Source: Rhodobacteraceae bacterium WFHF2C18 (GTDB lineage Bacteria; Pseudomonadota; Alphaproteobacteria; Rhodobacterales; Rhodobacteraceae). Taken from it: a DNA stretch of 64,000 nucleotides. Positions 7,862 to 27,612 of this stretch are shown here, in pieces (the stretch's first letter is position 1; each line of letters begins with the position of its first letter). The notes below the pieces were generated by a model, which was not told the DNA's origin, did not search any database, and saw nothing but the letters and a program-made list of their open reading frames with translations. Where the stretch lies: assembly GCA_002166865.1 (NCBI GenBank), contig NHTQ01000001.1, positions 62,001-126,000 of the forward strand, read 5' to 3'. The position numbers and the translations under genes are program-made.

Positions 7862-7977
7862 ACCCCTTTCCGTTTAGACCGACCCATGTGAGGACAGTCA
7901 TGCCGGCCCGTCAGGTTCTGGCGCGACGTTCCCGCCGGCCCGGTGCCTCGGCCGCCCGAGCGAAAGGATGATCCTGC

Positions 7978-11707: not shown

Positions 11708-11726
11708 AGAAGAATGAAGCACCAAG

Positions 11727-12476
11727 ATGGCTAGGGTCACCATTATTTCCGTCAACTACAAGTCGAAACCGCTCATCAACGTGTTGGAGCATAAGATCGA
11801 CCCCGCCCGGGCAGACTACATCGTTGTCGACAACAGCGGCGACTTTGTTCCAGTACGGGCGACGACGCGGGTGGTAAATGCCGGCGGCAACATCGGTTTT
11901 GGCCGCGCCTGCAACATGGGCGTGGAGAACAGCGATGCCGATGTAATCGTGTTCGCCAATCCCGATCTCGATATGGATGCCGCCAGTCTCTCTGTGTTTG
12001 TCGACTTTTCTTGCACCCAGCCCGCTGAAGCGATCTGGGGCCCGTTCATCCGCGACGGCAAGGGCGATGTCGTCTCGCTGTTTCGCCCTGGTCGGGCAGG
12101 GCTGGCGTTTTGCCGCCGCGCGCTCACGGAGGCTGAGCTAGAACGCGAGACCATTGAGACGGTCTATGTCTCAGGTGCTTGCCTCGCTACAAGCCGCACG
12201 CTGTTCCAACAGCTTGGAGGGTTCTCCGACAAGATATTCCTCTATGGCGAAGACCTCGACCTATGCCTGCGCGCTCATGACATCGGTGCCAAGATATACC
12301 TCACCAGCTCGGTGGAGTTGACGCACCACGGTGGCGGTTCCTCGACGCGGCTCGACCGGTTCAAGCGGCTTTTTCGGTCCACGAAGGGCCATTACGAATT
12401 CTTTCGCCTCCACGATTTTGGGCGCATCGCCGCAGTGATCAACGCCCTGCACCTTGCCTCGGGGCGGCGCTTCTGA
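11727..12476 (+). CDS. Glycosyltransferase family 2 (rhamnosyltransferase-like)
   Basis: A 249-residue GT-A fold enzyme. The N-terminus VTIISVNYKSKPLINVLEH is typical, followed by YIVVDNSGDF, GGNIGFGRACNMGV and VIVFANPDLDMDAASL, whose DPD-like region supplies the metal site. Late motifs SGACLATSRTLFQQLGGF and YGEDLDLCLRAHDIG carry the ED acidic pair. WbbL/RfbN-like rhamnosyltransferases share this arrangement, and a dTDP-rhamnose operon lies 6 kb downstream, so rhamnose transfer is plausible but unproven. Cytoplasmic, membrane-associated through substrate. Confidence 0.85.
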   Translation: MARVTIISVNYKSKPLINVLEHKIDPARADYIVVDNSGDFVPVRATTRVVNAGGNIGFGRACNMGVENSDADVIVFANPDLDMDAASLSVFVDFSCTQPAEAIWGPFIRDGKGDVVSLFRPGRAGLAFCRRALTEAELERETIETVYVSGACLATSRTLFQQLGGFSDKIFLYGEDLDLCLRAHDIGAKIYLTSSVELTHHGGGSSTRLDRFKRLFRSTKGHYEFFRLHDFGRIAAVINALHLASGRRF

Positions 12477-12497
12477 ATTCGTCAAGAGGCTTGCATT

Positions 12498-13568
12498 ATG
12501 GAGAATAGTGGCGTGTCCAAACGTAGAAGCATCTGTTTTTTCGCCCCTTACGGCGGGCGGGGCAACATTTCTGGCATTCAGGTTCGCCTGCGAATGCTGG
12601 CGCCCAATCTGGAGGCACTTGGCTACGACGTACACGTCATCGGCCCCTACGAGGAAATCCACGGTGCCACTACGCATTACTTCAGCTTGGACGTACCGCT
12701 CTTGCTTCGGCCATTTCGCGGGCTCGCAGCGAGCCACATCATCCGCCGCCTTCGCCCGTCAGTGGTCATTCTAGAGGGCCCCGCAGTCGTTGTTGGGCTG
12801 CGCGGGACCAAAGTGATCCAGATGATCCACGACAGCAAATTTGTGACAGAACATCGCCGTCGCGGCGGGTGGTTGCTTTGGTTTTTCTATTTCGTGATGT
12901 GCCGGGTCTACAGTTGCATAATGACCGTTTCCGAAGCTGAAAAGACCCGCATAGCTTCTAGTCTGAGGCTTGCGCGGGATAGAATTGTCGTCTCCTATAA
13001 TGGCATAGGAGATGATTGGTCTAAGTTGCCAAAGAACTTAAACAAGGATTTCGACCTAATCTACGTATCAAATTTCGCCAAACACAAAGGCCATATCCGT
13101 TTTCTCCAATCTATTGTAGGACTAGGGTATCGCGTTGCGCTTGTTGGAGGCGATCTCGGAACGCTCGCGCAGGTTAGAACTTTTGCTAATGAGTATAAGC
13201 TTGACGTGCAATTCTTCCACAACCTTAGCGAGACCGATCTCATCGACGTATATGACCGTTCACGCGTATTTGTTTTTCCCTCAGAGCTAGAAGGATTTGG
13301 TATTCCCTTCCTTGAAGCCCGCGCCCGCGCCCTGCCTGTAGTCGCATCTGATCTTGAGGTCTTTCACGAACTAGCTACGCTACTTGGTGCAACCATCGTC
13401 GATTTTTCCGATACATCGGCTGTCCGGAAGGCGATTTTTCGGGCCTTAGAGGTTGGGCCGCAACCAATTGAGACCGATCGTTTCCAGTGGAAGAATGTTG
13501 CTGCCGACCTATCAAAGATAATTTTCTCTGAGAGCAACGACATGCCAGCTGCACGAACGACGCGTTAG
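12498..13568 (+). CDS. Glycosyltransferase family 4 (GT-B fold)
   Basis: A 356-residue transferase. The N-terminal glycine-rich start is CFFAPYGGRGNISGIQVRL. The donor domain includes FDLIYVSNFAKHKGHIRFLQ, YRVALVGGD and the E-x7-E motif in SELEGFGIPFLEARARALP, with VASDLEVFHEL after it. A hydrophobic stretch near residue 130 (LLWFFYFVMC) may sit against the membrane. It follows the GT2 gene by 21 bases with a GAGG ribosome site. AT-rich codon choice near its end contrasts with manC downstream, marking a junction at about 13.57 kb. Confidence 0.85.
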   Translation: MENSGVSKRRSICFFAPYGGRGNISGIQVRLRMLAPNLEALGYDVHVIGPYEEIHGATTHYFSLDVPLLLRPFRGLAASHIIRRLRPSVVILEGPAVVVGLRGTKVIQMIHDSKFVTEHRRRGGWLLWFFYFVMCRVYSCIMTVSEAEKTRIASSLRLARDRIVVSYNGIGDDWSKLPKNLNKDFDLIYVSNFAKHKGHIRFLQSIVGLGYRVALVGGDLGTLAQVRTFANEYKLDVQFFHNLSETDLIDVYDRSRVFVFPSELEGFGIPFLEARARALPVVASDLEVFHELATLLGATIVDFSDTSAVRKAIFRALEVGPQPIETDRFQWKNVAADLSKIIFSESNDMPAARTTR

Positions 13569-13935: not shown

Positions 13936-15381
13936 ATGACCCAAGACATTCATCCGGTCCTTCTTTGCGGTGGTTCCGGCACCCGCCTCTGGCCGCTCTC
14001 GCGCAAGTCCTACCCCAAGCAGTTCGTGAGGCTGACCGGTGACGAGAGCCTTTATCAGGCTTCTGCCCGCCGCCTCTCAGGGTCAGGTTTTGCCGCACCG
14101 GTGATCGTCACGGCCTCGGATTTCCGCTTCATCGTTTTGGAGCAGCTTGCGGCGCTGGACATGGCGCCCGCCGATATCCTGATCGAGCCGGCTGCCAAGA
14201 ACACCGCCGCCGCGATCTGTGCGGCCGCCCTTGCGCTGGAGGCCCGCGCGCCGGGGGCTTTGATGCTGGTCGCCCCGTCCGATCATGTGATCCCCGACGC
14301 GGCACGGTTCCGCGCCGCGGTGCAGGCAGCAACCCCTGCCGCCCTTGCGGGCCAGTTGATGACCTTTGGCATTCGCCCTGACCGTGCCGAGACCGGCTAT
14401 GGCTGGCTGGAGCTGTCGGAGGCGGCGGAAGACTTCGCGCCGGTGGCGCAACCGCTCAAAAGCTTTGTCGAGAAGCCGGACGCCGCCAAGGCCGCAGCCT
14501 TGCTGGCAGGGGGCATGCATCTCTGGAACGCCGGTATTTTCCTCTTCACCACGACCACAATCCTTGACGCCTTTGCCAAACATGCGCCCGAGGTGCTGGA
14601 GGCCACGCAAGCGGCCTTCACCGCCGCCGAACGCGACCTTGCCTTTACACGGCTGGACCCCGCGGCGTGGGAGACCCTGCCCGATATCTCGATCGACTAT
14701 GCCGTGATGGAACGGGCCAGCAACCTCAGCGTCGTCCCCTACGCTGGCGCATGGTCCGACCTTGGCGACTGGCAGGCCGTCTGGCGCGAGGCAGAGGCAG
14801 ATGCGACAGGCACAGTCACATCCGGCCCGGCTACCGCGCTCGACTGTGCAGACACGCTTTTGCAGGCGACCGATGACGCGCAGGAACTCGTCGGGATCGG
14901 CCTGAAGGACATCATCGCGGTCGCCATGCCCGACGCAGTGCTCGTCGCCCATAAGGACCGCGCGCAAGAAGTCAAAGAGGCCGTCGCCACCCTCAAACGC
15001 AAATCCGTCCCGCAGGCCGAGACCCTGCCCCGCGACTATCGGCCCTGGGGCTGGTTCGAAAGCCTTGTTGTCGGGCCGCGGTTTCAGGTGAAGCGCATCA
15101 CGGTGCACCCTGGTGCGGCCCTCTCGCTGCAAAGCCACCACCACCGCTCCGAGCACTGGATCGTCGTCGAAGGCACCGCCAAGGTCACCATCGACGATGA
15201 GGTCCAACTGGTGGGCGAGAATGCTTCCGTCTACATCCCCCTCGGCGCCGTCCACCGCATGGAGAACCCCGGCAAACTGCCGCTGACCCTGATCGAGGTG
15301 CAGACCGGCAGCTACCTCGGCGAGGACGACATCATCCGCTACGAAGACATCTACGCCCGCGGACAAGGGGCCAAGGGATGA
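13936..15381 (+). CDS. manC: Mannose-1-phosphate guanylyltransferase / mannose-6-phosphate isomerase
   Basis: A 481-residue bifunctional enzyme making GDP-mannose and interconverting fructose-6-phosphate and mannose-6-phosphate. The nucleotidyltransferase half begins LLCGGSGTRLWPLSRKSYPK and contains LVAPSDHVI and SFVEKPD. The C-terminal cupin isomerase half contains RPWGWFESLVVGPRF and LSLQSHHHRSEHWIVVEGTA, with the metal-binding histidines. Length is standard for type II PMI/GMP proteins. Its stop overlaps the manB start by four bases (ATGA), so the two are one unit. With the fucose synthase lost, GDP-mannose itself may now be the end product used here. Confidence 0.95.
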   Translation: MTQDIHPVLLCGGSGTRLWPLSRKSYPKQFVRLTGDESLYQASARRLSGSGFAAPVIVTASDFRFIVLEQLAALDMAPADILIEPAAKNTAAAICAAALALEARAPGALMLVAPSDHVIPDAARFRAAVQAATPAALAGQLMTFGIRPDRAETGYGWLELSEAAEDFAPVAQPLKSFVEKPDAAKAAALLAGGMHLWNAGIFLFTTTTILDAFAKHAPEVLEATQAAFTAAERDLAFTRLDPAAWETLPDISIDYAVMERASNLSVVPYAGAWSDLGDWQAVWREAEADATGTVTSGPATALDCADTLLQATDDAQELVGIGLKDIIAVAMPDAVLVAHKDRAQEVKEAVATLKRKSVPQAETLPRDYRPWGWFESLVVGPRFQVKRITVHPGAALSLQSHHHRSEHWIVVEGTAKVTIDDEVQLVGENASVYIPLGAVHRMENPGKLPLTLIEVQTGSYLGEDDIIRYEDIYARGQGAKG

Positions 15382-16748
15382 CCCCCCTCACCTGCTTCAA
15401 GGCCTATGACATCCGCGGACGTCTCGGCATCGATCTGGACGAGGACATCGCCTATCGGATCGGACGGGCCTTTGCGGTGGCGCTGGATGCCACGACCGTC
15501 GTGCTGGGGCGCGATGTGCGCGCCTCATCCGAGAGCCTCGCCGCCTGCGTCGCACGCGGGCTGATGGATGCAGGCTGCAATGTGCTGGACCTTGGTCTGT
15601 CTGGAACTGAGGAGATGTATTTCGCCACCAGTCATTTCGGCGCGGATGGCGGCATCTGTGTAACCGCCTCGCACAACCCGATGGACTACAACGGGATGAA
15701 GATGGTGCGGGCGGGCTCCGCGCCTCTGGATACGGCGACCGGACTGACCCGCATCAAATCGCTGGCTGAAGAGAACGCATTTGCCGCGCCGATGAGCCAA
15801 GGCGCGCTCAAAGATGTCTCGGCAGAGGCCCGCGCCGCCTATGTCGCCTGCATCTGTGATTTCGTCGACGTCACAGCCCTCAAACCCCTCAAGATCCTCG
15901 TCAACGCAGGCCACGGGGCGGCAGGACCCACCTTTGACGCCATCGCCGCGGAACTGGCCAGACGCGGGGCGCCGCTCACCTTCGCGCGCATCCACCACAC
16001 CCCCGAAGGCACTTTCCCGCAAGGTATCCCGAACCCGCTCCTGCCCGAGAACCGCCCCGCTACGGTAGAGGCCGTCCGCGCAACGGGGGCAGATTTCGGG
16101 GTGGCATGGGACGGGGACTTCGACCGCTGTTTCTTCTTTGACCATGATGGGAACTTTATCGACGGCGAATATGTCGTAGGACTGCTGGCCGAGGCCTTTC
16201 TGGCCAAGGAACCCAGGTCCACCATCATCCACGACCCGCGCATCATCTGGGACACCCAGGACATCGTGGCCCGCGCAGGCGGCCGCGCCGTGCAAAGCCG
16301 CACCGGCCACGCGTTTATCAAGCAGGTCATGCGCGACGAGAACGCTGTCTACGGCGGCGAGATGTCAGCGCATCACTATTTCCGCGACTTTGTCTTCTGC
16401 GACAGCGGCATGATCCCCTGGCTTCTCGTGGCCGAACTGGTCAGCCGACACGGCAAGCTGGCCGATCTGGTCGCCGACCGGATCGCAGCCTTCCCATCAT
16501 CCGGCGAGATCAACTTCACGCTCGACGATCTGCAAGCCGCCATAGCACGGGTCGAGGCCGCCTTCGCGGACAAGGCGATGTCGGTGGATCGCACCGATGG
16601 CATCAGCTTTGACATGGGCGAGTGGCGCTTCAACCTGCGCAGCTCAAACACAGAGCCAGTAGTGCGTCTCAATGTCGAGGCAAAGCGGGATGCGGAGATG
16701 GTCAAGGAGGGGGTTGCGAGGGTGACGGAGCTCTTGAAGAGTCCATAA
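15378..16748 (+). CDS. manB: Phosphomannomutase
   Basis: Converts mannose-6-phosphate to mannose-1-phosphate for ManC. A 456-residue alpha-D-phosphohexomutase with its four domains recognisable. The active-site serine loop is CVTASHNPMDYNGMK, the metal-binding loop is WDGDFDRCFFFD, and the sugar-specificity region is YGGEMSAHHYFRDF. The C-terminal phosphate-binding loop is RSSNTEPVVRLNVEA. ATGA overlap with manC indicates translational coupling. This is the last gene of the forward block before the first recombinase gene, whose 3' end faces it 106 bases away. Confidence 0.95.
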   Translation: MTPLTCFKAYDIRGRLGIDLDEDIAYRIGRAFAVALDATTVVLGRDVRASSESLAACVARGLMDAGCNVLDLGLSGTEEMYFATSHFGADGGICVTASHNPMDYNGMKMVRAGSAPLDTATGLTRIKSLAEENAFAAPMSQGALKDVSAEARAAYVACICDFVDVTALKPLKILVNAGHGAAGPTFDAIAAELARRGAPLTFARIHHTPEGTFPQGIPNPLLPENRPATVEAVRATGADFGVAWDGDFDRCFFFDHDGNFIDGEYVVGLLAEAFLAKEPRSTIIHDPRIIWDTQDIVARAGGRAVQSRTGHAFIKQVMRDENAVYGGEMSAHHYFRDFVFCDSGMIPWLLVAELVSRHGKLADLVADRIAAFPSSGEINFTLDDLQAAIARVEAAFADKAMSVDRTDGISFDMGEWRFNLRSSNTEPVVRLNVEAKRDAEMVKEGVARVTELLKSP

Positions 16749-16854: not shown

Positions 16855-17769
16855 TCAAGCCCACACATTGTGCTCGGCCTTTTCCAGATAGCGCGCGAGC
16901 ACATTGATCGACTTCCATCCGCCTGCTCTCATGATCGCAGCTGTGTCGAAGCCGCGGGTCAACAAGTCTTGGGCTGCCCCTACCCGCATTGAATGACCAC
17001 TGAAGGCGTCGACATCATCGGGATCGATTCCGAGACGTTTGGCTGCATTCTTGACGACACGTTTGACGGCCGTCGTCTCCAGCGATCGGTCGATTGGCTT
17101 GCCTTGGTAGATCGGGCAAAAAAGCCAGTCGATGTGCCTGCCGCGCCAATTGATCCACTCTTCGACGAGTGTGGCCGTTTGATGCGATGTGAAGGCCAGG
17201 CGCCCCTCGCCAAAGGGGTCCGCCTTGCTGCGCCGGATCAGCACCCGCAGGGTTCCATCCTCACGAATCTCCAAATCATCGAGGCGCAGGGCGACAAGTT
17301 CCGAGCGCCGCGTAAGAAGTTCGTAACCCAAAGACAGCATTGCACGATTGCGCAGCCCCCAAGGCGTGTCGGGCTCGGTTGCGAGAAAGCGATCAAGGTA
17401 GTCGCGGGTCAGGCCCTTGGCTTGCTTCGGGCGAACGGGCTTGCTGCGCCGGACTCGCCGCAGCGCAAGGTTGACCTCTTCATCATAAGTCGGGTCGCCG
17501 AGACCCAGCAAGCGGTGCACCTTCCGGATCGCGTAGAGGCGCCGGCGCACAGTTGAGGGTGCATGTGACCTGCCTTGATCAATAAGGAAACTGCACAACG
17601 TTTCGACGTTGGCCGGAAACACTTCTGAAATGTCTCTCGCTTGACACCAACCCTCGAAAGCCTCGACATCTGCGTAGTAACTGCGCATGGTCGCGGGAGC
17701 GTAGGCGCCTTCGAGGCGCTGAAACTCAGAGCGCCAGCTCTTATTAGCTTGGTGTAAATTCGGAGCCAT
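16855..17769 (-). CDS. Tyrosine recombinase (integrase), copy 1
   Basis: A 304-residue site-specific recombinase. The N-terminal SAM-like core-binding domain includes LEGAYAPATMRSYYADVEAF and APSTVRRRLYAIRKVHRLL. Catalytic residues are in place: Arg in YELLTRRSELVALRLDDL, Lys in RRSKADPFGEG, H-x-x-R in FSGHSMRVGAAQDLL, Trp in GGWKS and the nucleophile Tyr in LARYLEKAEHN. It is about two thirds identical by eye to the copy at 21626. The ATG at 17769 abuts a perfect palindrome shared with the divergent XRE gene. No Shine-Dalgarno precedes it, so a leaderless transcript is possible. No att site was identified. Confidence 0.9.
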   Translation of the reverse strand: MAPNLHQANKSWRSEFQRLEGAYAPATMRSYYADVEAFEGWCQARDISEVFPANVETLCSFLIDQGRSHAPSTVRRRLYAIRKVHRLLGLGDPTYDEEVNLALRRVRRSKPVRPKQAKGLTRDYLDRFLATEPDTPWGLRNRAMLSLGYELLTRRSELVALRLDDLEIREDGTLRVLIRRSKADPFGEGRLAFTSHQTATLVEEWINWRGRHIDWLFCPIYQGKPIDRSLETTAVKRVVKNAAKRLGIDPDDVDAFSGHSMRVGAAQDLLTRGFDTAAIMRAGGWKSINVLARYLEKAEHNVWA

Positions 17770-17772
17770 ATA

Positions 17773-17788
17773 TGGCACTATAGTGCCA
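17773..17788. promoter_or_regulatory. Perfect 16-bp palindrome between integrase 1 and XRE 1
   Basis: TGGCACTATAGTGCCA is a perfect inverted repeat. It ends four bases from the integrase start codon and 16 bases before the XRE start codon. A palindrome of this size between a recombinase gene and a divergent helix-turn-helix gene is the usual layout of an autoregulatory operator. Binding by the XRE protein is inferred. Confidence 0.7.
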
Positions 17789-17803
17789 ATAGAGATGAAT
17801 GCA

Positions 17804-18040
17804 ATGGTGACAGGCAATCAAATTCGCATTGCTAGATCTGCGCTTCGATGGTCGGTGCAAGAACTCAGCGAGCGATCTGGGGTATCGACGAGAACCCTCA
17901 AACGGATAGAGGCTTCCGACGGAATACCGTCGACAAGCGCCAACTCTCTGCAGAACATAAAGGACTGCCTCGAAGCTGCCGGAATTGAATTCATCGGTAC
18001 ACCTGACGACCGACCCGGCGTTCGCGTCGGTACCAACTAG
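17804..18040 (+). CDS. Small XRE-type helix-turn-helix regulator, copy 1
   Basis: A 78-residue protein that is almost wholly one Cro/CI-type domain: QIRIARSALRWSVQELSERS then GVSTRTLKRIEASDG. A conserved tail follows, CLEAAGIEFIGTPDDRPGVR. The ATG at 17804 aligns with the start of the second copy at 22582; in-frame GTG (17783) would start inside the palindrome and ATG 17795 is possible. It is divergent from integrase 1. Only 31 bases separate its stop from rfbC, with no terminator visible, so it may lead the rhamnose operon. Probable role: control of the integrase, perhaps also of rfb; both inferred. Confidence 0.8.
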   Translation: MVTGNQIRIARSALRWSVQELSERSGVSTRTLKRIEASDGIPSTSANSLQNIKDCLEAAGIEFIGTPDDRPGVRVGTN

Positions 18041-18071
18041 TTGCACAGCGCTTACGAAATCTAACTGACTT

Positions 18072-18638
18072 ATGCAGATCGAAGACACAAAACTGTCAGG
18101 TGTGAAGATCCTGACGCCCGCACGCTTTGGCGACCACCGAGGCTTCTTTTCCGAGAGCTGGAACAAGGCCCGAATGGAGGCGGCCGGGCTGGGCCATGAT
18201 TTCGTGCAGGATAACCACTCGCTGAGCCATGAGGTCGGCACCATCCGTGGCTTGCATTTTCAGTCTCCACCCCACGCGCAGGCGAAGCTTGTGCGCTGCG
18301 GCCGTGGGTGCCTATTCGATGTTGCGGTCGATATTCGCAAAAATAGCCCGACATTCGGTCAGTGGATTGGTGTTGAGCTGAGCTTTGAGAATGGCAAGCA
18401 GCTACTCATCCCTGAGGGCTTCCTGCATGGCTTTGTCACGCGAGAGCCGAATACCGAGATCATCTACAAGTGCTCTGACTACTATGCGCCCGACTGCGAT
18501 GGTGCCGTCCGCTTTGACGATCCGGACCTTGGCATCGACTGGGGTCTGAATTGTGAGCCGTTCCTGTCAGAAAAGGATGCCGCAGCCCCTCTCATGAAAG
18601 ATTTCGTATCCCCCTTTGTTTGGGAGGATCGCGCATGA
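18072..18638 (+). CDS. rfbC: dTDP-4-dehydrorhamnose 3,5-epimerase
   Basis: Third enzyme of dTDP-L-rhamnose synthesis, epimerising C3 and C5 of dTDP-4-keto-6-deoxyglucose. A 188-residue RmlC cupin with normal length. Family residues are visible: [12 protein letters not shown], the active-site [12 protein letters not shown] with catalytic histidine, [17 protein letters not shown], and [11 protein letters not shown]. The ribosome site is weak, consistent with coupling to the preceding XRE gene. Its stop overlaps the rfbB start (ATGA at 18635). Confidence 0.95.
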
Positions 18639-19696
18639 AACTCCTTATCACAGGTGGTGCAGGCTTCATCGGCTCGGCCGTAGTCCGCTTGGCAGTAGCC
18701 CGCCGGCATGAGGTCATCAACCTCGATGCGCTGACATACGCGGCATGCCTTGCCAATGTTGCTGAGGTCGCGGAAAGCCCGCTTTACACGTTTGAACACG
18801 CGGACATCCGTGATCGGGCTGCCCTGGACCGCATCTTTGCAGCGCATGCTCCTGACATCGTCATGCATCTGGCGGCGGAGTCACATGTCGATCGCTCGAT
18901 CGATGGGCCCGCAGACTTCATCGAGACGAATATTGTCGGCACTTTCAACATGCTGGAGGCGGCGCGCAAATATTGGGAGGACTGCGGCAAACCAGAGAGC
19001 TTCTGCTTTCACCACATCTCGACCGATGAGGTCTTTGGATCGTTGCCTGACGACCCCACCGTTCAGTTCACCGAAGAAACCCCCTACGATCCGCGCAGCC
19101 CCTACTCCGCCTCCAAGGCCAGTTCTGACCATCTGGCGCGCGCATGGCATGAGACCTACGGGCTTCCGGTCGTGCTCAGCAATTGCTCGAACAATTACGG
19201 GCCTTATCACTTCCCCGAAAAGCTGATCCCCGTGATCATCCTGAATGCCCTCGCCGGCAAGCCGCTGCCGATCTATGGCGACGGGAGCAATATTCGCGAC
19301 TGGCTCTATGTCGAAGACCATGCCGACGCACTCCTGCTAGTGGCCCAGAAGGGAAAAGTGGGGCGCAGCTACAATATTGGCGGCGAGAACGAGCGCAGCA
19401 ATCTGGGCCTCGTGCAGACTATTTGCGCCATCCTCGACCGCATTCAGCCGCGCGCCCAAGGCAGTTACGAGGACCTCATCACCTTCGTCACCGACCGGCC
19501 CGGTCATGACGCGCGCTATGCCATCGACCCCACGCGGATCCGGGAGGAACTCGGGTGGCGGCCTTCGGTCACTGTCGAAGAGGGACTGGAGAAGACAGTC
19601 CGCTGGTATCTTGCAAACGAGGGCTGGTGGCGTCCCCTTCTGGCACGCGAGGGTGTGGGTAAGCGCCTCGGCACCGGAACGGAGAGTGCGCGATGA
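18635..19696 (+). CDS. rfbB: dTDP-glucose 4,6-dehydratase
   Basis: Second enzyme of the dTDP-rhamnose pathway. A 353-residue extended SDR. It begins [17 protein letters not shown] (NAD-binding), with [20 protein letters not shown], then [11 protein letters not shown] that carries the Thr-Asp-Glu triad, and the catalytic YxxxK in [28 protein letters not shown] is typical for RmlB. The start at 18635 (overlapping the rfbC stop) removes a short non-conserved extension. It overlaps rfbD by four bases. Confidence 0.95.
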
Positions 19697-20544
19697 CCGG
19701 TATCCTCGTCTTCGGTCGTTCCGGGCAGGTTGCCACGGAACTGCAGCGTCTTGCCGACGTCGCCGTCATCGGTCGCCAAGAGTGCGATCTTGCATCGCCC
19801 GCCGCCTGCGCCACCGTCATCGCAGCGTACAAACCAAGGGCAGTCCTCAATGCAGCCGCCTATACGGCCGTGGACCGCGCCGAGGAAGAAGAGGTCCTGG
19901 CGCGGACAATTAACGGCGAGGCACCCGGCGCCATGGCTGAGGCCTGCGCCAAACTCGGCATCCCCTCCGTCCAGATCTCGACCGACTACGTCTTTGACGG
20001 CAGCGGCGACGCACCTTGGCCACCTGACGCAGCCCTTGCCCCGCAGAGCGCATATGGGCGCACGAAACTGGCCGGCGAAGAAGCCGTGCGCGCTGCCGGT
20101 GGCTGCCACGCGATCCTGAGGACATCCTGGGTCTTCTCGGCGCATGGCAGCAACTTCGTGAAGACGATGCTGCGTCTCTCGGAGAGCCGCGACACACTGA
20201 ATATTGTTGCAGATCAGATCGGCGGGCCGACGCCTGCCCGCGCCATTGCGGAGGCTTGCTTGACGATCGCCGCGCAGCTGATGGAGGACCCATCAAAGTC
20301 GGGCACCTACCATTTCAGCGCGGCGCCAGATGTGAGTTGGTATGACTTTGCCCGTGCGATCTTTGCCGAGGCTGGAAAATCTATGACGGTACATCCGATC
20401 CCGACATCCGATTACCCGACGCCGGCGAAAAGGCCGCTGAACTCGCGACTGGACTGCACCGCAACCGAAGAGACATTCGGCATAATCCGTCCGGGTTGGC
20501 GGAGTGCGCTACGTGACGTTATCAAGCAATTGGAGCAAAAGTGA
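19693..20544 (+). CDS. rfbD: dTDP-4-dehydrorhamnose reductase
   Basis: Last step of the pathway, NAD(P)H-dependent reduction to dTDP-L-rhamnose. A 283-residue SDR of the RmlD family. It starts [17 protein letters not shown], with [26 protein letters not shown] and the catalytic YxxxK in [12 protein letters not shown]. The C-terminal substrate region ends [17 protein letters not shown], matching the family RPxxSxLxxxK-like element. It is coupled to rfbB and rfbA by four-base overlaps. Confidence 0.95.
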
Positions 20545-21416
20545 TGAGCGACCGTAAGGGAATTATTTTGGCCGGCGGATCGGGCACGCGGCTCTATCCG
20601 ATTACCTTGGGCGTCTCGAAACAGCTCTTACCCATCTATGACAAGCCGATGATCTACTATCCCTTGACCGTATTGATGCTCGCCGGCATTCGCGAAATTC
20701 TCGTTATCACAACGCCGCAAGACCAGGCGCAATTCCAGCGGACTTTGGGCGATGGCAATCAGTGGGGCATCAGCCTGCAATACAAGGTGCAGCCAAGCCC
20801 TGATGGTCTGGCTCAGGCGTTCATCCTCGGAGAGGATTTCCTTGACGGCTCGCCGTCGGCGATGGTCTTGGGTGACAACATCTTTTTTGGTCACGGGCTG
20901 CCCGAACTGCTGCAGGCAGCAGATACAGCAGCCGATGGCGCAACCGTCTTTGGCTACCGCGTCTCCGATCCGGAGCGTTACGGCGTCGTCGACTTCGATA
21001 TAGACGGCAAGGTGGTATCGATCATTGAAAAACCCGCGACGCCGCCGTCGAACTATGCAGTAACAGGGCTTTACTTTGTCGACGGGACAGCACCTGCACG
21101 TGCACGTGAAGTTAGGCCCTCTGCACGCGGCGAGTTGGAGATTACATCGCTCCTGGAAAGCTATCTTGCGGATGACAAACTTTCCGTCGAACGTATGGGA
21201 CGCGGTTATGCCTGGCTCGACACCGGCACGCACGCGTCACTTCTGGATGCAGGGAACTTTGTCCGCACACTTACCGAGCGGCAGGGGCAACAGGTCGGAT
21301 CACCAGACGAGGTCGCATTCGGGAAGGGCTGGATCTCACGCGAACAATTGCTCGCACTGGCCGACCGCTTTGGGAAGAACGGGTATGGCGCATACCTCGA
21401 AGGCATCGCGGGGTAG
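20541..21416 (+). CDS. rfbA: Glucose-1-phosphate thymidylyltransferase
   Basis: First step of the pathway, making dTDP-glucose. A 291-residue RmlA. The signature [20 protein letters not shown] is followed by [35 protein letters not shown] and [35 protein letters not shown] near the end is also typical. It is last in the order C-B-D-A. A strong hairpin begins at its stop codon. The set is complete, so the segment alone could supply dTDP-rhamnose. Confidence 0.95.
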
Positions 21417-21440
21417 CTGGCCGCAGGCTCGCGGCCCAGC
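21416..21440 (+). terminator. Stem-loop at the end of rfbA
   Basis: GCTGGCCGC, loop AGGCTC, GCGGCCCAGC forms a stem of about nine pairs with one bulged G. It starts within the rfbA stop codon. No U-run follows, so it is a terminator-like or mRNA-stabilising hairpin rather than a classical intrinsic terminator. Confidence 0.4.
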
Positions 21441-21625
21441 TTCGCTGCTTGGGCACTGACAAGAGTGGGGCCAACTCGGGCGCTGGGGATGGCGATGCAC
21501 ACCGCTTTGACTGGTAGCATCGCATAGTGAAGGATTTGCGCGCCCCCATCTTTTTCAAGGATTATCCGGGCCACTCGGAGCGCAACAGCTCCAACGCGTG
21601 AATATGCCGCGACGCGCGTCGTCGC

Positions 21626-22528
21626 TCACGTCCAGACATTGTGCTCGGCGTGCTCAAGGTAGCGTGAGAGGATATTCACCGACTTCCAGCCGCCCGCCCG
21701 CATGATGGCGACGGTATCATGTCCCGCGCACAGTAGATCCTGCGCCGCACCGACGCGAAGTGAATGGCCGCTGAAGCCGTCGATCTCATCGGGATCCAGC
21801 CCTGCTTTTCTCGCAGAGCTCTTGATGAGGCTCTTGACCGAGGTCGTGCTCAGGCTGCGCTGCATGGCCTTGCCCTGATAGATCGGGCAGAAAAGGTAGG
21901 AGATGTGCGGTCCCCGCCAGTCCAGCCAGTCTCGAACGAGGCTGGCTGTTTTGCGTGAGGTGAAGGCGATACGGCCTTCGCCAAAGGGATCCGCCTTGCT
22001 TCGGCGAATGATTACCCGCAGCGTGCCATCGTGGCGATCTTCCAGATCGTCGCTGGTCAGCGCCACCAGTTCGGAGCGGCGCGTCAGCAATTCATACCCC
22101 AAGGACAGCATGGCGCGGTTGCGCAGACCCCAGGGCGTGTCCGGCTGAACGGCGAGAAACGCGTCGAGATAGGCGCGGGTCAAACCCTTCGCCTGTTTCG
22201 GGCGCGTGTGTTTTGCCCGGCGGATACGGCGGAAGGTGAGGTTGATCTCCTCGTCATATGTCGGATCGGGAAGCCGCAAGAGCCGGTGGGCCTTGCGGAT
22301 GGCATACAGACGCCGGCGCACGGTGGAGGGCGCCTTGCCCGGGGCTTGGTCTTCCAGAAATTGGCAGATCACCGGGACTGGGGCAGGGAAGGGCTCGAGC
22401 CCATGTTCCAGGGACCAGGTTTCAAAAACCTCGATGTCGGCGTAGTAGGATTTCAAAGTCGATGGGGCATAGGCGCCCTCAAGACGCTTGAATTCAGATC
22501 TCCAATCGTGTTTCGGTCCAAACGGCAT
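21626..22528 (-). CDS. Tyrosine recombinase (integrase), copy 2
   Basis: A 300-residue recombinase, close paralogue of the copy at 16855. Shared blocks include APSTVRRRLYAIRKAHRLL, RPKQAKGLTRAYLDAFLA and DTPWGLRNRAMLSLGYELL. Catalytic residues are intact: Arg in LLTRRSELVAL, Lys in RRSKADPFGEG, H-x-x-R in FSGHSLRVGAA, Trp in AGGWKS and Tyr in LSRYLEHAEHN. The ATG at 22528 removes a non-conserved extension. Like copy 1 it lies on the minus strand, divergent from a small XRE gene, with its 3' end facing the previous cargo operon. Confidence 0.9.
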   Translation of the reverse strand: MPFGPKHDWRSEFKRLEGAYAPSTLKSYYADIEVFETWSLEHGLEPFPAPVPVICQFLEDQAPGKAPSTVRRRLYAIRKAHRLLRLPDPTYDEEINLTFRRIRRAKHTRPKQAKGLTRAYLDAFLAVQPDTPWGLRNRAMLSLGYELLTRRSELVALTSDDLEDRHDGTLRVIIRRSKADPFGEGRIAFTSRKTASLVRDWLDWRGPHISYLFCPIYQGKAMQRSLSTTSVKSLIKSSARKAGLDPDEIDGFSGHSLRVGAAQDLLCAGHDTVAIMRAGGWKSVNILSRYLEHAEHNVWT

Positions 22529-22543
22529 GGATAAAGCCTGACG

Positions 22544-22564
22544 ACTTGCGTAAAATATGCAAGT
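22544..22564. promoter_or_regulatory. Inverted repeat between integrase 2 and XRE 2
   Basis: ACTTGC (22544-22549) and GCAAGT (22559-22564) form an inverted repeat with nine AT-rich bases between. It occupies the same relative place as the palindrome of the first module but has a different sequence, which suggests that each XRE protein has its own operator. Confidence 0.5.
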
Positions 22565-22581
22565 TAAAATGATTGGCGCAA

Positions 22582-22830
22582 ATGATAACATCGGCTCAAA
22601 TAAGGAGTGCTAGAACCGCTCTTGGCTGGTCGGCTTCTAAGTTGGGTGACCAAGCAGGTCTTTCGCTGCGAACGGTTCAAACCGTAGAAACTGACGGTGG
22701 TGAGTCCAAAGTGCGAAAAAGCTCACTTCTAGCAATCAAAACCACTCTCGAATCTGCCGGCATCGAGTTCATCGGCGCGCCGGACGACGCCCCCGGTATC
22801 CGCATTCATGGGGGTGCCTCCGGATCCTGA
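22582..22830 (+). CDS. Small XRE-type helix-turn-helix regulator, copy 2
   Basis: An 82-residue Cro/CI-type protein: QIRSARTALGWSASKLGDQA then GLSLRTVQTVETDGG, with the tail ESAGIEFIGAPDDAPGIR. It is a diverged paralogue of the product at 17804, with the same length and tail. ATG 22582 is preferred over an upstream TTG. It reads away from integrase 2. Unlike copy 1, it is followed by more than 500 bases with no clear gene. Confidence 0.8.
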   Translation: MITSAQIRSARTALGWSASKLGDQAGLSLRTVQTVETDGGESKVRKSSLLAIKTTLESAGIEFIGAPDDAPGIRIHGGASGS

Positions 22831-23387
22831 GCGGGCTCACGGAGGCCGCGCGTGACCGCCGTGGAGCTCGCGCGCACCATCCTGGGGCGCTTCTGGCGAC
22901 CCGTCTGCCGGTCTTGATCATCGCCTGGTGGCACACCCCCTCTCGCCGCCCCGGCGCTGAACAGCGCTCTGTCGGGCAAGATCTGCCACGTGATGGCCTT
23001 TCCGGCCCGGGTTGTCCCGGCGGGCTTGCGCGGCGCGCGCAGTCTACCCCGTGGGCCGTCACGGGCGGCGCTCGTCGGTCCCGCGATCGCGTTCGGGCAA
23101 CCTTGAAAGTGGCGCGTTAAGGTGGCGCGGTGCCGCGGCGGCGGATGTGCCCCCGGATGCCCCGGGCCCCGATTGGCCGTGGCCATGGGTCCTTTCTTGC
23201 GCGTCGAGCTCCGCGGCGCGGATGAGGCCAACACACATCTCTGCGCCCCGGAAGAGGCACTGTGTGACCAACATGCATGTAGTCCCAGCTTGACTCGTCG
23301 GCACAATATCTGGTAGGTATCTGACAGGAATAGATATGGCGCATGATGTGCCTCCACCGAGCAGCCTGATCGTTGAGTGGAGCCTGC
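22831..23387. other. Non-coding stretch with a possible promoter near its right end
   Basis: No open frame here has a recognisable domain. Near the right end, TTGACT (23290-23295), 18 bases, then TAGGTA (23314-23319) resembles a sigma-70 promoter for the gene at 23388. The rest is GC-rich with no repeats that I could identify. Confidence 0.35.
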
Positions 23388-23999
23388 ATGTCACGCAAAC
23401 CCGCCCCGAAGCGTCCCGGACCGTCCAAATCCCCCGACCCCGCCGAGGTGACCCGCACGCAGGACCTTGCTGCGCGTCTGCCGTCGGTGCCTCCGGCCCC
23501 CGGGGAGCATCCCGATCATGCCGCCACGATTCCCCTGGTCGTGCACGACCGATTCGCGCCGCGCAACGGGTTCGAAACGGTGCTGGTCGAAGAGATCGCT
23601 GATCTGACGCGGCGCATACGGACCGATGAACACCGCATGGAGCAAATTCATCGGATCAAGCGCAACGACCTTGCGGTGACCGCCCTGACCCGATCGCTGA
23701 CGGCGAAGGGCGCAACCGCGGAGACCAGCGACCGGATGGTCGACGAACTGCTCGCGGCGCTTTCCTCCGGCGGCGCCAAGGACCGCCAGGAGGCGTCGGA
23801 CACGCTTGCGCGCTACGGCATCGATCTCGACCAGCTCGACGCCCAGGCCTGGGTCGCCTGCGCCGGATACATCGAGCAACTCAACCGGCAGATCGCGGGC
23901 TGCCGCCGCCAGCGCCAGCAGGTGATCGAGGATCTTGAGCGGCTGCGCCGTGCCGCGGCGCGCGACGGCATTGCCGACGCCGAGGATGTGACGGACTGA
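23388..23999 (+). CDS. Uncharacterised protein, first of a phage-like triad
   Basis: A 203-residue, highly charged soluble protein with no family that I recognise. It is proline-rich at the N-terminus (KPAPKRPGPSKSPDPAE), then helical, with NGFETVLVEEIADLTRRIRT and a C-terminal coiled-coil-like segment, QLNRQIAGCRRQRQQVIEDL. Its stop overlaps the start of the next gene by one base, and that gene overlaps the terminase-like gene. This gives a compact three-gene unit. The ATG at 23388 has a TGGAG ribosome site. Confidence 0.6.
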   Translation: MSRKPAPKRPGPSKSPDPAEVTRTQDLAARLPSVPPAPGEHPDHAATIPLVVHDRFAPRNGFETVLVEEIADLTRRIRTDEHRMEQIHRIKRNDLAVTALTRSLTAKGATAETSDRMVDELLAALSSGGAKDRQEASDTLARYGIDLDQLDAQAWVACAGYIEQLNRQIAGCRRQRQQVIEDLERLRRAAARDGIADAEDVTD

Positions 24000-24478
24000 T
24001 GCGGGACGCCAGAGACCGCGCCAACCGGGAGAATGCCCGGCGCTCGACCGGGCCGCGCAGCCCGCAGGGCAAGAGACGCGCGGCGCAGAATGCACGGCGC
24101 CACGGTGTGATGTCGCAAGCGGCGCGCGCCGCCCGGCGCGAGAGGCTCCTGGCGGCGATGACGCTTCCGGAGATCGCGCCGCTGGCCCCCCTCACGGCAT
24201 CGGATCCCGACGTGATCCGTCTCCTTGATGCGGTTGCGCGTCTGCAGCTGGTGCGCGACGCGGAAACCGCTCTTGACGCCGCCTTCGCCGCGCAGGTTAC
24301 GCGGGCGCGCGGCGGCTGCATCGATCCCGCGGCCGCCCCCGATCCTGTCGATGCGCTGCTCGGAGAGGCGCGGCTCCTGGCCCGCTACCGGAGCGAAGCC
24401 ATGTCCGCCCGCCGACGCGCCCTGCGCGTCCTTATCGACAAGCACCAGACGACAGACGAGGCCCAACATGACCCATGA
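23999..24478 (+). CDS. Uncharacterised protein with 'N-A-R-R-S-T-G-P' motif
   Basis: A 159-residue basic protein. The N-terminal ANRENARRSTGPRSPQGK followed by RRAAQNARRHGV is a motif found in many short bacterial and phage-associated proteins of unknown role. The rest is helical and Ala/Arg-rich. It overlaps genes on both sides, including the terminase small subunit-like gene by 11 bases. The Arg-rich N-terminus could bind nucleic acid; this is a guess. Confidence 0.65.
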   Translation: MRDARDRANRENARRSTGPRSPQGKRRAAQNARRHGVMSQAARAARRERLLAAMTLPEIAPLAPLTASDPDVIRLLDAVARLQLVRDAETALDAAFAAQVTRARGGCIDPAAAPDPVDALLGEARLLARYRSEAMSARRRALRVLIDKHQTTDEAQHDP

Positions 24479-25103
24479 GACATCGCCAGAGACAGAGATC
24501 GAAGGCGGCCCCGGTGCGGCCGGGGACGGGGCGCAGCCCCTCGTGCCCGCGTGTCGGGAGCGCTTCGCGCAGGCCTTTGCGGCAACCCATTGCGGCGAGG
24601 AGGCGGCCCGCCTGGCCGGCTATGGCCGCCACGCGGCTTGGGTCTGGATCGAGCTATTGCAAAAAAGATCGGTGCAGGCGCGTCTTGGCTTCCTGAAGCG
24701 GGCGCCGGATCGGCCGGCGGCGCGCGCTCGTGATCCGGAAGATGCCTTGCGCGAGATGGCGTTCACGGACATCTCGACCCTCTACCATGTCGACCCGCTG
24801 ACCGGCGCGCCCACCCTCGATCTCGCGCGGGCGACCACGGCGCAACTTTTCGCGCTCGCGGTCACGCAGACCATCGTCGTGCAAGACGGGCGGACGCGGC
24901 ACAGCATGACGGTCAAGACGCCCGATCGGGTGGGCGCCGCGAAGGCCCTGCTGAGCCGGGAGCCTTCCGCCCGCGATACGCACGAAGCCAGGGTTCGCGA
25001 CGATTTCTTGCGTGCGGCCCGCGCCATCAACGCGGCCAGCCCGCCCTTGGACCCGGAATACATAAAAGCCAACGCGTACCGTCTTTTCGATCCCGACGAG
25101 TAA
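24468..25103 (+). CDS. Phage terminase small subunit-like protein
   Basis: A 211-residue protein resembling the Terminase_2 DNA-recognition subunit. It has RFAQAFAATHCGEEAARLAG, a helix-turn-helix-like opening, then DPEDALREMAFTDISTLYHV, PTLDLARATTAQLFALAV and VKTPDRVGAAKALLSRE, all in the usual order. In a phage it would bind the packaging site beside a large ATPase/nuclease subunit. No large subunit, portal or capsid gene follows; the next 540 bases hold no gene. It is therefore either a prophage remnant or a reused DNA-binding protein. Confidence 0.7.
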   Translation: MTHETSPETEIEGGPGAAGDGAQPLVPACRERFAQAFAATHCGEEAARLAGYGRHAAWVWIELLQKRSVQARLGFLKRAPDRPAARARDPEDALREMAFTDISTLYHVDPLTGAPTLDLARATTAQLFALAVTQTIVVQDGRTRHSMTVKTPDRVGAAKALLSREPSARDTHEARVRDDFLRAARAINAASPPLDPEYIKANAYRLFDPDE

Positions 25104-25562
25104 GGCATGTCGCTCAAGCGTGGGACCCGGTCTTGATTTCCTCGACCATGCGACATCAAACGGGTGGTGTGTGCCCGCGCGACTGCCAGGGAACGCGGCC
25201 ACGCGCCAGTTCGCCACGATGCGCGCCTCGAGAAAGAACACGCGCCCGGGCCCGGCCCGCGACACCGGGTCGGGCGCGGCCCGTTCTCCCGGCGGGCGGG
25301 CGTGAGCCGGCCCGCTGATCGGCTGTCCGCGGCGCGCGCACGCGGCAGCCCCGCTCTTTGACAATTCAAGAAGGCCGCGGCGCGGCTCCCCGGGCGATGT
25401 CCGGCCCGGGGCGGTTGGCCGCCCCGGGCACGCGGGGCACCAAAGTCGTTGTTTCCCGAAACGAACCCAATTGCAATCTTGCCGTGCAACCTCGTTCGCG
25501 AGATCGCTCCTCGCTGGGCGTGGCCCACGGCGGCCCCATCCTGCCGCCGCCGTCAAATGCCC
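25104..25562. other. Non-coding stretch with strong hairpins
   Basis: About 460 very GC-rich bases between the terminase-like gene and the repeats near the wecA-like gene. No frame shows a recognisable protein. The main feature is the hairpin at 25404-25429. Confidence 0.5.
25404..25429. other. Perfect 11-bp stem hairpin
   Basis: GCCCGGGGCGG, loop TTGG, CCGCCCCGGGC: eleven uninterrupted pairs with a four-base loop. No T-run follows on either side. It could serve as a bidirectional transcription block between the terminase-like gene and the convergent wecA-like gene. Confidence 0.55.
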
Positions 25563-25647
25563 GATAACGCCTCGCCTCAAGTAGCGAAGCGGTAGGCTTG
25601 ATAACGCCTCGCCTCAAGTAGCGAAGCGGTAGGCTTGATAACGCCTC
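25563..25647 (-). repeat. 37-bp tandem repeat, 2.3 units
   Basis: Two identical 37-base units (25563-25599 and 25600-25636) begin GATAACGCCTCGCCTCAAGT, and a third partial unit runs into the stop codon of the gene at 25646. Read on the minus strand, each unit has GCGTTATC and ACCGCTTCGCT. The same two words, GCGTT(G/A)TC and ACCGCTTCGCT, occur in the array before galU (1611-1636). Confidence 0.8.
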
Positions 25648-27049
25648 AACGCGTTGTGGCAAGATAATCGCCTGAGACGGCTTCCATGGACTCCGCCCGC
25701 ACCGTCTCCAGGAACGTCCGCCAGGCCTCTTGGTCCGTCGCGAAGCGCTGGCTCCAGGTGACGGTCAGGTGGTCCCCGTCATCCGTCTCCATGCGCCAGA
25801 AGTCTTCATGCGCATAGCGGTAGATCCGGACGTCGACCGAGAGACCATCCTCGATAAACACGCCGCTGAACTTCGATTCGATCTTGGCTGGTGGCAGGGA
25901 GACGATCCCGGACGCGCCTTTTCGCGTCGCTAGGCCGCGCCCGCCTGTATCGCTTGTTCCCTCGCCATTCGATTTCCGGCGTGTCCTGGCGAATTGAATG
26001 ATCGCCAGGTTGGTCACCGCGAAAAGACCGAGGAATCCCAAAAACGCCACCCACGCCATCATTGACTGATCATACAGCAAAACGCCGGCGACAACGGGCG
26101 TGATGACCATGGGCGCCATGACGAGGGTGGTCAGCGGATTGGAGAGCGCTTTCCGGCCGCGCCCCAGAACGACGATTTCCAGGCCGCGGCGGATTTTCTG
26201 GTGCAGGTGCATCCGGTCGGGGTGGTGAATGGGCAGACCATCCAGGGCCCGCCGCGTGATCGTGTGCGCGACATCCGCGAGCGGCCAGAACAGGACGAGC
26301 AGGAGGGCCGGGACCGCGACGCCCGGCGCCAGTGCCGCAATCGAGATCGCAATCCAGACGAGAAAATGCCCCAGCGTATAGGCACCCGCATCGCCGAGGA
26401 ACAGGCGCCCAACGGGCCAATTGAAGAAGAAAAAGCCCAGCGTGCCGGCCGCGAGCAGCCCCGAGAGCACGGCCATCTGATCCAGCCCGACCCTGTGCGC
26501 GATATACGACAGGCCCACGGCCGCCGCACCGATGGTCAATGCCGCCAAGCCGTTCATTCCGTCGATCAGGTTCAGAGCATGGCAGAAACCCGCCGCGAAC
26601 AATACCGTTATCGGAATCCCGAAGGTGGCGATCGCCAGGGCATCGTCCAGGAAGGGCAGGTCCGCGCGTGGCGCCCAGAGCCCGAGGGCCGCCGTCGCGA
26701 TCACCGCCGAGACGATGGCGGCCAGGAAACGCCGAAAGGGCGAGACGAGATACCCGAGGTCTTCCGACACGCCGGCCAGGAAGACGGGAAGGCCCGAGGC
26801 TATCAACCACAGCGAGTGCTGGCCCGCCGTCTGGTCGCTCAAGGCCGCCGCACCCAGGCAAAGGCCGCACAGCACGGCCACACCGCCCAGGCGCAGCGGT
26901 TCGCCGACATGTGAATTTTGCACCGCCCGCCTGTCATCGCGGGGGCGGATGAAACGCTCGATAATTGACTGGCACTCTGTCAGTAAGAAGGACAGCGCGA
27001 CTGAGAGGCTCGCCGCGATTACAAGGGACCATAGATAGGGTTCCGACAC
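25646..27049 (-). CDS. WecA/MraY-like polyprenyl-phosphate sugar-1-phosphate transferase with C-terminal extension
   Basis: An integral membrane enzyme expected to start repeat-unit assembly by moving a HexNAc-1-phosphate onto undecaprenyl phosphate. Of its 467 residues, about 1-350 form the multi-helix GT4/MraY-like core. Catalytic elements are CHALNLIDGMNGLA, FLGDAGAYTLGHFL and HHPDRMHLHQKIRRG. After residue ~360 comes a soluble extension of ~100 residues containing SGVFIEDGLSVDVRIYRYA and LTVTWSQRFATDQEAWRTFL, which is not part of typical WecA. The start is GTG at 27049. It sits alone on the minus strand, its stop inside the 37-bp repeats, with a recombinase remnant upstream. Confidence 0.85.
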   Translation of the reverse strand: MSEPYLWSLVIAASLSVALSFLLTECQSIIERFIRPRDDRRAVQNSHVGEPLRLGGVAVLCGLCLGAAALSDQTAGQHSLWLIASGLPVFLAGVSEDLGYLVSPFRRFLAAIVSAVIATAALGLWAPRADLPFLDDALAIATFGIPITVLFAAGFCHALNLIDGMNGLAALTIGAAAVGLSYIAHRVGLDQMAVLSGLLAAGTLGFFFFNWPVGRLFLGDAGAYTLGHFLVWIAISIAALAPGVAVPALLLVLFWPLADVAHTITRRALDGLPIHHPDRMHLHQKIRRGLEIVVLGRGRKALSNPLTTLVMAPMVITPVVAGVLLYDQSMMAWVAFLGFLGLFAVTNLAIIQFARTRRKSNGEGTSDTGGRGLATRKGASGIVSLPPAKIESKFSGVFIEDGLSVDVRIYRYAHEDFWRMETDDGDHLTVTWSQRFATDQEAWRTFLETVRAESMEAVSGDYLATTR

Positions 27050-27289
27050 GGGACTGAACTCGAATTTGGTGCACTGGAGCGTTCGGGAATCGCGTGCAAT
27101 AAATGGAACGGTTTAGATCCTTTAGTAAACCCCCGGTAGAAAACTTTCACGAACCATTGCCGTTTGGTCGCGCACGGCGACACGCGGAGAGCGCCAAAAA
27201 TGTCGGTGCGACGGACGATTGGACGGATCGGCGGTTTCTTGCGCGGGTTCTGTCTGGCGTTTCGCAAGCGTCGAGAGCCGGGTTTCCCG

Positions 27290-27612
27290 CCCCACACATT
27301 GCGCTCGGCTGTCTCCGGGGACCGCGACAGCCTGTTGATGGACCTCCAGCCGCCCGCGCGCATGACCGCGGCCGTCTCGAATCCCATGCAGAGCAGGTCC
27401 TGGGCGGCGCCTACGCGGAGGGAGTGCCCGCTGAAACCTTCCGTAGCCACCGGGTCCAGTCCGGAGCGCGTGGCCGCGGCCTTGATCAAGCGCTTGACCG
27501 TCGTGGTGCTGAGGCCGCGGTCGAGCGCCTTGCCCTGGTAGATCGGACAGAAGAGCCAGGAGAGGCCCGGCCCGCACCGATCGAGCCAGTGGCGTACACG
27601 CCGCGCTGTTCG
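27290..27612 (-). pseudogene. Third tyrosine recombinase, truncated and decayed
   Basis: About 108 codons match the C-terminal third of the recombinases at 16855 and 21626: LSWLFCPIYQGKALDRGLST, TTVKRLIKAAATRSGLDP, FSGHSLRVGAAQDLLCMG and AGGWRSINRL. The end reads LSRSPETAERNVWG where intact copies have L(A/S)RYLE(K/H)AEHNVW, so the nucleophilic tyrosine is a serine. The N-terminal domain and the first catalytic Arg and Lys are missing. It lies about 300 bases from the 3' end of the tRNA-Ser gene. Nothing recognisable was found between 27613 and 27907. Confidence 0.85.

Follow-up and report, generated by a model that had tools for sequence, protein, structure and literature searches.

The window analyzed here, 64,000 nucleotides of contig NHTQ01000001.1 from Rhodobacteraceae bacterium WFHF2C18, contains two full-length Cre-like tyrosine recombinase genes, int1 and int2, which flank a complete rfbCBDA operon and are each divergent from a small XRE gene. 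We lean toward reading the region as two fused units of an exchangeable, recombinase-linked family of surface-polysaccharide cassettes. The integrase-XRE module and its cargo have a recurring anatomy, the recombinase is under purifying selection, the recognition helix of the XRE protein covaries with a putative operator, and in three pairs of related loci homology ends at a short site, GCGTTATCGGGCRTTYG with a 16-base core, which is new here and was found at junctions and then across module loci. More tentatively, the family may represent natural recombinase-mediated cassette exchange, in which a repressor-typed Cre-like recombinase would swap whole serotype cassettes at a shared inverted pair of these 17-bp sites, within and between alphaproteobacterial species.

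The TT37-67 and SM26-46 plasmids of P. pseudonitzschiae share flanks that are 98% identical over 4.3 kb and 96% identical over 10.3 kb, but the cassettes between these flanks (~9.3 and ~19.4 kb) are unrelated. Either cassette has a module to itself; the two integrases are 75% identical, and the one in TT37-67 is interrupted by a frame change. At both junctions the motif faces inward, with the junction no more than 6 bp from the site. The plasmid of a third strain, SMR1, is organized alike, with pseudaminic-acid cargo and flanks ~79% identical to those of the other two. When 29 ends of XRE-side homology (at least 300 bp at 80% identity) were compared, homology was found to end at most 6 bp from the site in both partners in L180/L181 (the plasmid pair above), L041/L045, and L059/L089; random windows held a site at ≤3 mismatches in 47 of 3520 draws.

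In the window's own 3.36-Mb genome, only two copies match the 16-mer GTTATCGGGCRTTYGA perfectly, those at 1654-1669 (+) and 25553-25568 (−), which face each other around both modules; four further copies carry 2 mismatches. An inversion of 16.8-22.8 kb, for which the original prediction had proposed a test, is not supported, since those ends hold no inverted repeat of at least 16 bp and the inverted site pair brackets 1654-25568 instead. The cassette features, in window coordinates, are as follows.

1092..1568, plus strand: MarR-family regulator just outside the inverted site (Pfam HTH_24/MarR_2)
1654..1669, plus strand: promoter-proximal copy of the inverted site, GTTATCGGGCGTTCGA, facing inward, a perfect match placed between the MarR-type gene and the first polysaccharide gene
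1751..13568, plus strand: polysaccharide genes (Pfam for ten open reading frames, ORFs, from 1751 to 11707; beyond that, the ORF list only), comprising nucleotidyltransferase, UDP-sugar dehydrogenase, glycosyltransferases, split epimerase, flippase, sulfotransferase, and EpsG-type polymerase
13936..15381, plus strand: manC, mannose-1-phosphate guanylyltransferase/isomerase (Pfam)
15378..16748, plus strand: manB, probable phosphomannomutase (distant match to an annotated phosphomannomutase, 25%, E 6e-5; syntenic with int1 in locus L031)
16855..17769, minus strand: int1, Cre-like tyrosine recombinase (Pfam, closest structure, active-site alignment)
17773..17788, no strand: putative operator TGGCACTATAGTGCCA between int1 and xre1 (palindrome; family-wide helix-operator covariation)
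17783..18040, plus strand: xre1, small XRE protein (listed start overlaps the operator; in-frame ATG at 17795)
18072-18638, plus strand: rfbC, dTDP-L-rhamnose gene (family match)
18635-19696, plus strand: rfbB, dTDP-L-rhamnose gene (family match)
19693-20544, plus strand: rfbD, dTDP-L-rhamnose gene (family match)
20541-21416, plus strand: rfbA, dTDP-L-rhamnose gene (family match)
21626..22528, minus strand: int2, Cre-like tyrosine recombinase (Pfam, active-site alignment)
22544..22564, no strand: putative operator ACTTGCGTAAAATATGCAAGT between int2 and xre2 (palindrome)
22573..22830, plus strand: xre2, small XRE protein (homology to xre1)
25553..25568, minus strand: XRE-side copy of the inverted site, GTTATCGGGCATTTGA, facing inward, the second of the two perfect genome matches

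Across 80 modules, XRE-side copies of the site at ≤2 mismatches lie in the integrase's orientation in 33 cases and in the opposite orientation in none, at a median of 2.8 kb from the integrase stop. Such a site occurs within 6 kb in 28 of the 68 modules that have at least 4 kb of XRE side and in 2 of the 12 that have less, counts in which related loci are not independent; 200 shuffled patterns gave such a site in a mean of 0.24 and a maximum of 2 modules, and 298 kb of control regions held one copy at ≤2 mismatches and 11 at ≤3. The exact 15-mer GTTATCGGGCRTTTG is present in 9 of 20 module genomes versus 7 of 374 others (p 3e-9), a comparison qualified by the pattern having been drawn partly from the same genomes and by the seven in the others being close to what chance would give; two of the nine module genomes carry the copy on a different contig from the module. 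With ≤1 mismatch allowed, the 16-mer is found in 12 of 18 module genomes, and within 60 kb of a module all 11 XRE-side copies are integrase-oriented and 9 of 10 copies on the 3' side are opposed, several copies in this tally being clustered in one genome. Beyond the selected 16 bases, only a preceding GC and a weak box 5-11 bases out are conserved (48 copies). At the end of the cassette far from XRE, a MarR-type gene stands just outside the site in 5/6 genomes tested, window included (a similar gene at that place in 4/5 others), and in P. pseudonitzschiae a NusG-type gene stands there instead; the first gene inside is in the site's sense for 10 of the 11 copies examined, 73-983 bp away.

The original prediction had described two intact recombinases about two thirds identical, and int1 and int2 are indeed both intact, 71% identical, and each carry a Phage_integrase domain by Pfam. 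At ~300 amino acids (aa), with a core-binding and a catalytic domain and no arm-binding domain, they have the makeup of simple, Cre-like recombinases (Phage_int_SAM_1 plus Phage_integrase in int1; Phage_integrase the only domain reported in int2), and the closest solved structure to int1 is Cre (E 4e-27). Each of the six residues of the R-K-H-R-W-Y active site is kept in at least 93 of 95 homologs, and the ratio of nonsynonymous to synonymous rates (dN/dS) is 0.05-0.14 across 14 integrase pairs, so the recombinase is under strong purifying selection. Int1 scores 18.5 bits against the integron integrase model TIGR02249, for which the cut-off is 265. A phage origin of the module was rejected because phages and viral contigs gave no close relatives, the best phage match to the integrase among the matches listed being 29.8% identical and the two matches in viral contigs 32% identical.

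A scan of named genomes gave 79 other loci (the best 80 of 104 relatives), which by title belong mostly to Rhodobacterales and Sphingomonadales, a few assembled genomes bearing other labels. A divergent, adjoining XRE homolog accompanies 71 of the 80 full-length integrase homologs at these loci; the pairing is beyond chance, and the co-occurrence on which the original prediction had staked itself in advance is borne out. An integrase relative at E 1e-60 occurs in 20/394 genomes of a family sample, the window's own included, and a search of 35 genus mates found no close integrase, the single match at E 1e-30 being 33% identical. Among plasmids, 43 of the 67 records matching at E 1e-30 are 60-80% identical, in a sample that is not independent since Pseudosulfitobacter accounts for 32 of the 67, many of these sharing one plasmid size. 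The module sits beside polysaccharide genes in all 14 annotated plasmid records inspected, which come from the 60-80% group and include none of the 24 records under 60% identity. In a tree of 77 integrases, sequences from Erythrobacteraceae and Sphingomonadaceae appear in several places among those of Rhodobacterales, a pattern that fits transfer and does not prove it.

The link to polysaccharide cargo is also seen in a Pfam test of the first two genes on each side of the module, which used 133 of 145 proteins on the integrase 3' side (12, mostly short ORFs, removed by hand), 139/145 on the XRE side, and a random set of 106 of 107 genes from 20 fixed-spacing regions in five module-bearing genomes. 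GDP_Man_Dehyd and Epimerase each occur in 18/133 proteins on the integrase 3' side versus 3/139 on the XRE side (Fisher p 4e-4 and 2e-4 for this enrichment of nucleotide-sugar genes) and in at most 1/106 of the random genes. First and second neighbors are antiparallel to the integrase in 104/145 cases on the 3' side and similarly in 97/145 on the XRE side, so orientation against the integrase is not special to cargo. The suggestion of a polysaccharide-cargo unit stands in part: the module recurs and is tied to such cargo, which differs between matching loci, and what is not supported is the placement of the cargo downstream of XRE.

That placement is contradicted by synteny. In Boseongicola (L031), manC-manB-int1 form one block matching window positions 13753-17826 at 84%, and in L039 rfbCBDA (77%) and int2-xre2 (82%) stand in the order seen in the window, which together put the cargo on the integrase 3' side and would pair manC-manB with int1 and rfbCBDA with int2. 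The order "integrase, operator, XRE, cargo" in the original prediction must thus be replaced; as read from these comparisons, the recurring order is cargo (+), integrase (−), operator, XRE (+), accessory genes. In a tblastn search with the window's rfbC, no other module locus scanned had rfbC adjoining XRE, which makes the abutment of xre1 and rfbC look like a scar left by the fusion of two units. The window thus seems to hold two units of one cassette family fused within one site pair: a unit A (site at 1654, operon, manCB, int1, and xre1) would have been joined to a unit B (rfbCBDA, int2, xre2, accessory genes, and site at 25553), both losing their inner ends. All four genes of the intervening rfbCBDA operon match their families, and xre1 stops 31 bp before rfbC begins, both as predicted; a consensus scan of 17600-18120 found neither a sigma-70-type promoter nor a terminator, such scans being weak evidence. 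A shared xre1-rfbC transcript is a candidate that is probably local to this genome. The window's rfb operon is an extra copy, a second one lying elsewhere in the genome (G000:C1:725454-728752), and two rfbA matches occur in 4/60 genus genomes.

The XRE genes are 85-aa ORFs, 49% identical over 78 residues and each divergent from its integrase as had been claimed; the Pfam cut-off is reached by xre1 only (HTH_3), xre2 giving a weak, sub-cut-off HTH match in NCBIfam. In many loci a palindrome of varied sequence lies between integrase and XRE, and across 80 modules, XRE genes whose recognition helices are more alike also have more similar intergenic DNA (Mantel r 0.42, 0/2000 permutations). This correlation is unchanged after allowing for integrase similarity, from which helix (r 0.085) and operator (r 0.02) are both nearly independent. 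XRE is much more diverged than the flanking genes on either side in L057/L062, which is not so in L090/L094 and L039/int2; co-resident modules have differing operators in the cases compared by eye. Phage immunity regions consist of a repressor and its operator, and the XRE-operator variation resembles an exchangeable immunity cassette in that a small repressor and a palindromic operator covary independently of the integrase; the difference is that the module is not part of a known virus.

If these parts act together, then a full unit would run from a MarR- or NusG-type regulator through an inward-facing site, a polysaccharide operon, a convergent recombinase, an operator, a divergent XRE gene, and accessory genes to a second inward-facing site. 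XRE would repress both the recombinase gene and its own, and once repression was lifted the recombinase would act at the inverted sites, so that the whole cassette would be swapped or inverted. XRE-operator pairs that diversify like phage immunity regions may leave an incoming cassette active despite the resident one, and the cargo would determine which polysaccharide is made.

Several observations weigh against this scheme. No site at ≤2 mismatches lies within 6 kb in 40 of the 68 modules, the orientation split loosens to 64 versus 6 at ≤3 mismatches (45/68 modules), 6 of 18 module genomes do not hold the 16-mer at ≤1 mismatch, and a looser first scan with a 21-mer hit 120 module loci 33 times, shuffled patterns scoring 1-22 and 310 kb of other regions giving no hit. 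By eye the site has no lox-type internal dyad, and repeat searches found no exact direct repeats of the classical attachment (att) kind. At the junctions, 26 of the 29 XRE-side ends are not at the site in both partners, several lying just past XRE; the L059/L089 copies carry 3 and 4 mismatches; and the far-end coincidence rests on one strain pair. The cassette has one orientation in all three P. pseudonitzschiae plasmids, and no products of circularization, inversion, or excision were observed; cassettes could also be exchanged through homologous recombination in their flanks, without the Cre-like recombinase.

This last point is the core of the alternative that survives best, which we nevertheless consider rather unlikely: ordinary homologous recombination in conserved flanks would exchange the cassettes, as it does O-antigen loci, with the integrase-XRE genes a small selfish pair at the operon end. 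The long, nearly identical flanks of the exchanged P. pseudonitzschiae cassettes fit such a history, as do integrase remnants that decay in place. So does a set of nine pairs with homologous XRE sides and unrelated cargo (two loci in two pairs each; L073/L115 dropped, as the contig ends 31 bases on), in which homology ends between 16 bases before and 2 after the integrase stop, where paralogous integrases provide homology; in eight other pairs the cargo is shared too. Purifying selection on the recombinase, the fixed orientation and position of the site, and, in three pairs, homology that stops at the site's inner edge would all be unexpected for a bystander.

Since paralogous integrases are alike, a homology end at the integrase stop does not place the crossover, and we rejected two candidates. 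An att site in the last 80 bp of int, suggested by those ends and by 3'-end remnants in L060 and L097, fails on the lack of exact repeats and weak synonymous constraint there, and elsewhere the int-tail motif (≤2 mismatches) marks only integrase copies or remnants, including one integrase apparently interrupted by an insertion sequence. A crossover inside int is not localized by identity profiles.

A phase switch, in which the recombinase would invert the site-bracketed block and so connect or disconnect the operon from an outside promoter, strikes us as improbable. Two inverted, inward-facing sites with a recombinase are what an invertible locus should have, and the sense of the first far-end gene and the MarR-type gene outside agree with it; both orientations were not observed, the three conspecific plasmids sharing one, and an inversion of 24 kb, as in the window, would be large.

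We give slightly less credence still to a regulatory role, with the site serving in the leaders of polysaccharide operons and recognized by the adjoining MarR- or NusG-type protein. The far-end copy does lie in the operon leader, in sense and beside such a regulator, and a degenerate copy precedes the second gene of the window's operon. The XRE-side copy, however, faces inward even where the next genes oppose it (L046, L105, L107), and in 59 genus mates there were 17 hits at ≤1 mismatch versus 12 for the reversed pattern, although rfbA is present in 57/60 genus genomes; 35 of these mates are the ones searched for the integrase, with no close copy found. That an unrecognised transposon has this site as its terminal repeat and the recombinase as its resolvase is very improbable, for although inverted terminal sites bound a block, Tn3-family elements include Cre-like resolvases, and transposases of insertion sequence (IS) type form a cluster in 15 loci (named from sequence reading; rve_3 in 3/133 neighbors), these transposases have no fixed place, lying on either side and in either orientation and mostly beyond the integrase 3' end, and no target-site duplication was seen by eye in the window or L180-L182.

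The remaining features of the window lie toward its XRE side and beyond.

22840..23045, plus strand: probable VanZ-family gene remnant (DNA homology to L039 stops within L039's VanZ-cluster gene)
23373..23999, plus strand: accessory gene in the position of family c3 (clusters apart from c3; 26% identity when aligned)
23999..24478, plus strand: accessory gene of family c5 (STGP...NARRHG motif)
24468..25103, plus strand: terminase-small-subunit-like (terS-like) gene (weak: Pfam Terminase_2 below cut-off; PHROG E 1.5e-5)
27019..27657, minus strand: broken third integrase copy (at about 27289-27630) that retains only the 3' part, lacks the catalytic Tyr, and lies outside the site pair

Small families recurring on the XRE side are VanZ, the c3-c5 pair, and HGGxSTG-type genes, and terS-like genes recur on either side. 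The c3/c5 genes are a conserved small-protein pair (L107:7022-7657, L067:5984-6559, and relatives), and the two examples searched had no Pfam or NCBIfam match at E 0.05. On the other side, L115 carries at 10918-11120 an unannotated 203-bp sequence directly after the integrase, found at 87-88% in at least 6 other Rhodobacterales plasmids. Within the window's operon, the sugar epimerase at 5326-6339 is split into two ORFs (5326-5838 and 5848-6339), probably by a frameshift, and a 57-bp repeat (82%) at 1642-1698 and 2677-2733 includes the degenerate site copy. A unit of ~37 bp is tandemly repeated at 25567-25640, just outside the XRE-side site, and a single long ORF at 28196-30250 apparently fuses two genes, its middle shifted by a possible frameshift. 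A tRNA-Ser(tga) gene at 27908-27997 forms the right edge of the window's variable region; in ten genus mates there was no strong window match in the ~8 to 12 kb to its left, matches running only from the tRNA rightward (two further contigs end too close to it to tell). General targeting of tRNA genes was rejected, though the variable region ends at one, as a tRNA gene occurs in 6 of the 60 module loci scanned.

Set against known systems, the family shares catalytic residues with simple tyrosine recombinases and has Cre of phage P1 as its best structural relative; it differs from Cre in lying on chromosomes and large plasmids beside polysaccharide cargo, with no lox-type site found. O-antigen and capsule serotype loci are exchanged between conserved flanks, and like this family they have a variable central operon between conserved genes that is swapped within species, whereas here each variable block has its own recombinase-repressor module and a shared inverted end site. 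Capsule loci of Bacteroides have invertible promoters; there the promoter inverts, whereas here the sites bracket a whole cassette. A site-specific recombinase is reported to be tied to those Bacteroides polysaccharide loci (PMC3090145). An rfb operon as a plasmid-borne surface trait, the same type of trait as here, is cited in PMC13386836, the accessible portion of which does not name the recombinase-XRE module. Neither direct-repeat att sites nor tRNA insertion, as in classical integrative islands, was found, and of the traits of phage satellites like the phage-inducible chromosomal islands (PICI), the integrase with a divergent repressor is regular and the terS-like cluster occurs in 8 loci only. 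No description of the module or motif was found among the titles and abstracts listed in searches of the openly accessible literature, subscription papers lying outside that scope.

Homologous recombination in flanking genes is the usual explanation for swaps of whole surface-polysaccharide loci. If a recombinase is indeed dedicated to this exchange, with one short site in common and repressors that diversify, the mechanism could be tested directly; it would also matter for how marine bacteria change phage receptors and biofilm traits, and it would provide new recombinase-site pairs. The site also offers a simple way to spot cassette ends in genomes. In marine and soil relatives of Rhodobacter and Sphingomonas, blocks of surface-sugar genes seem to have been swapped between strains, each tied to its own recombinase and a fast-changing repressor.

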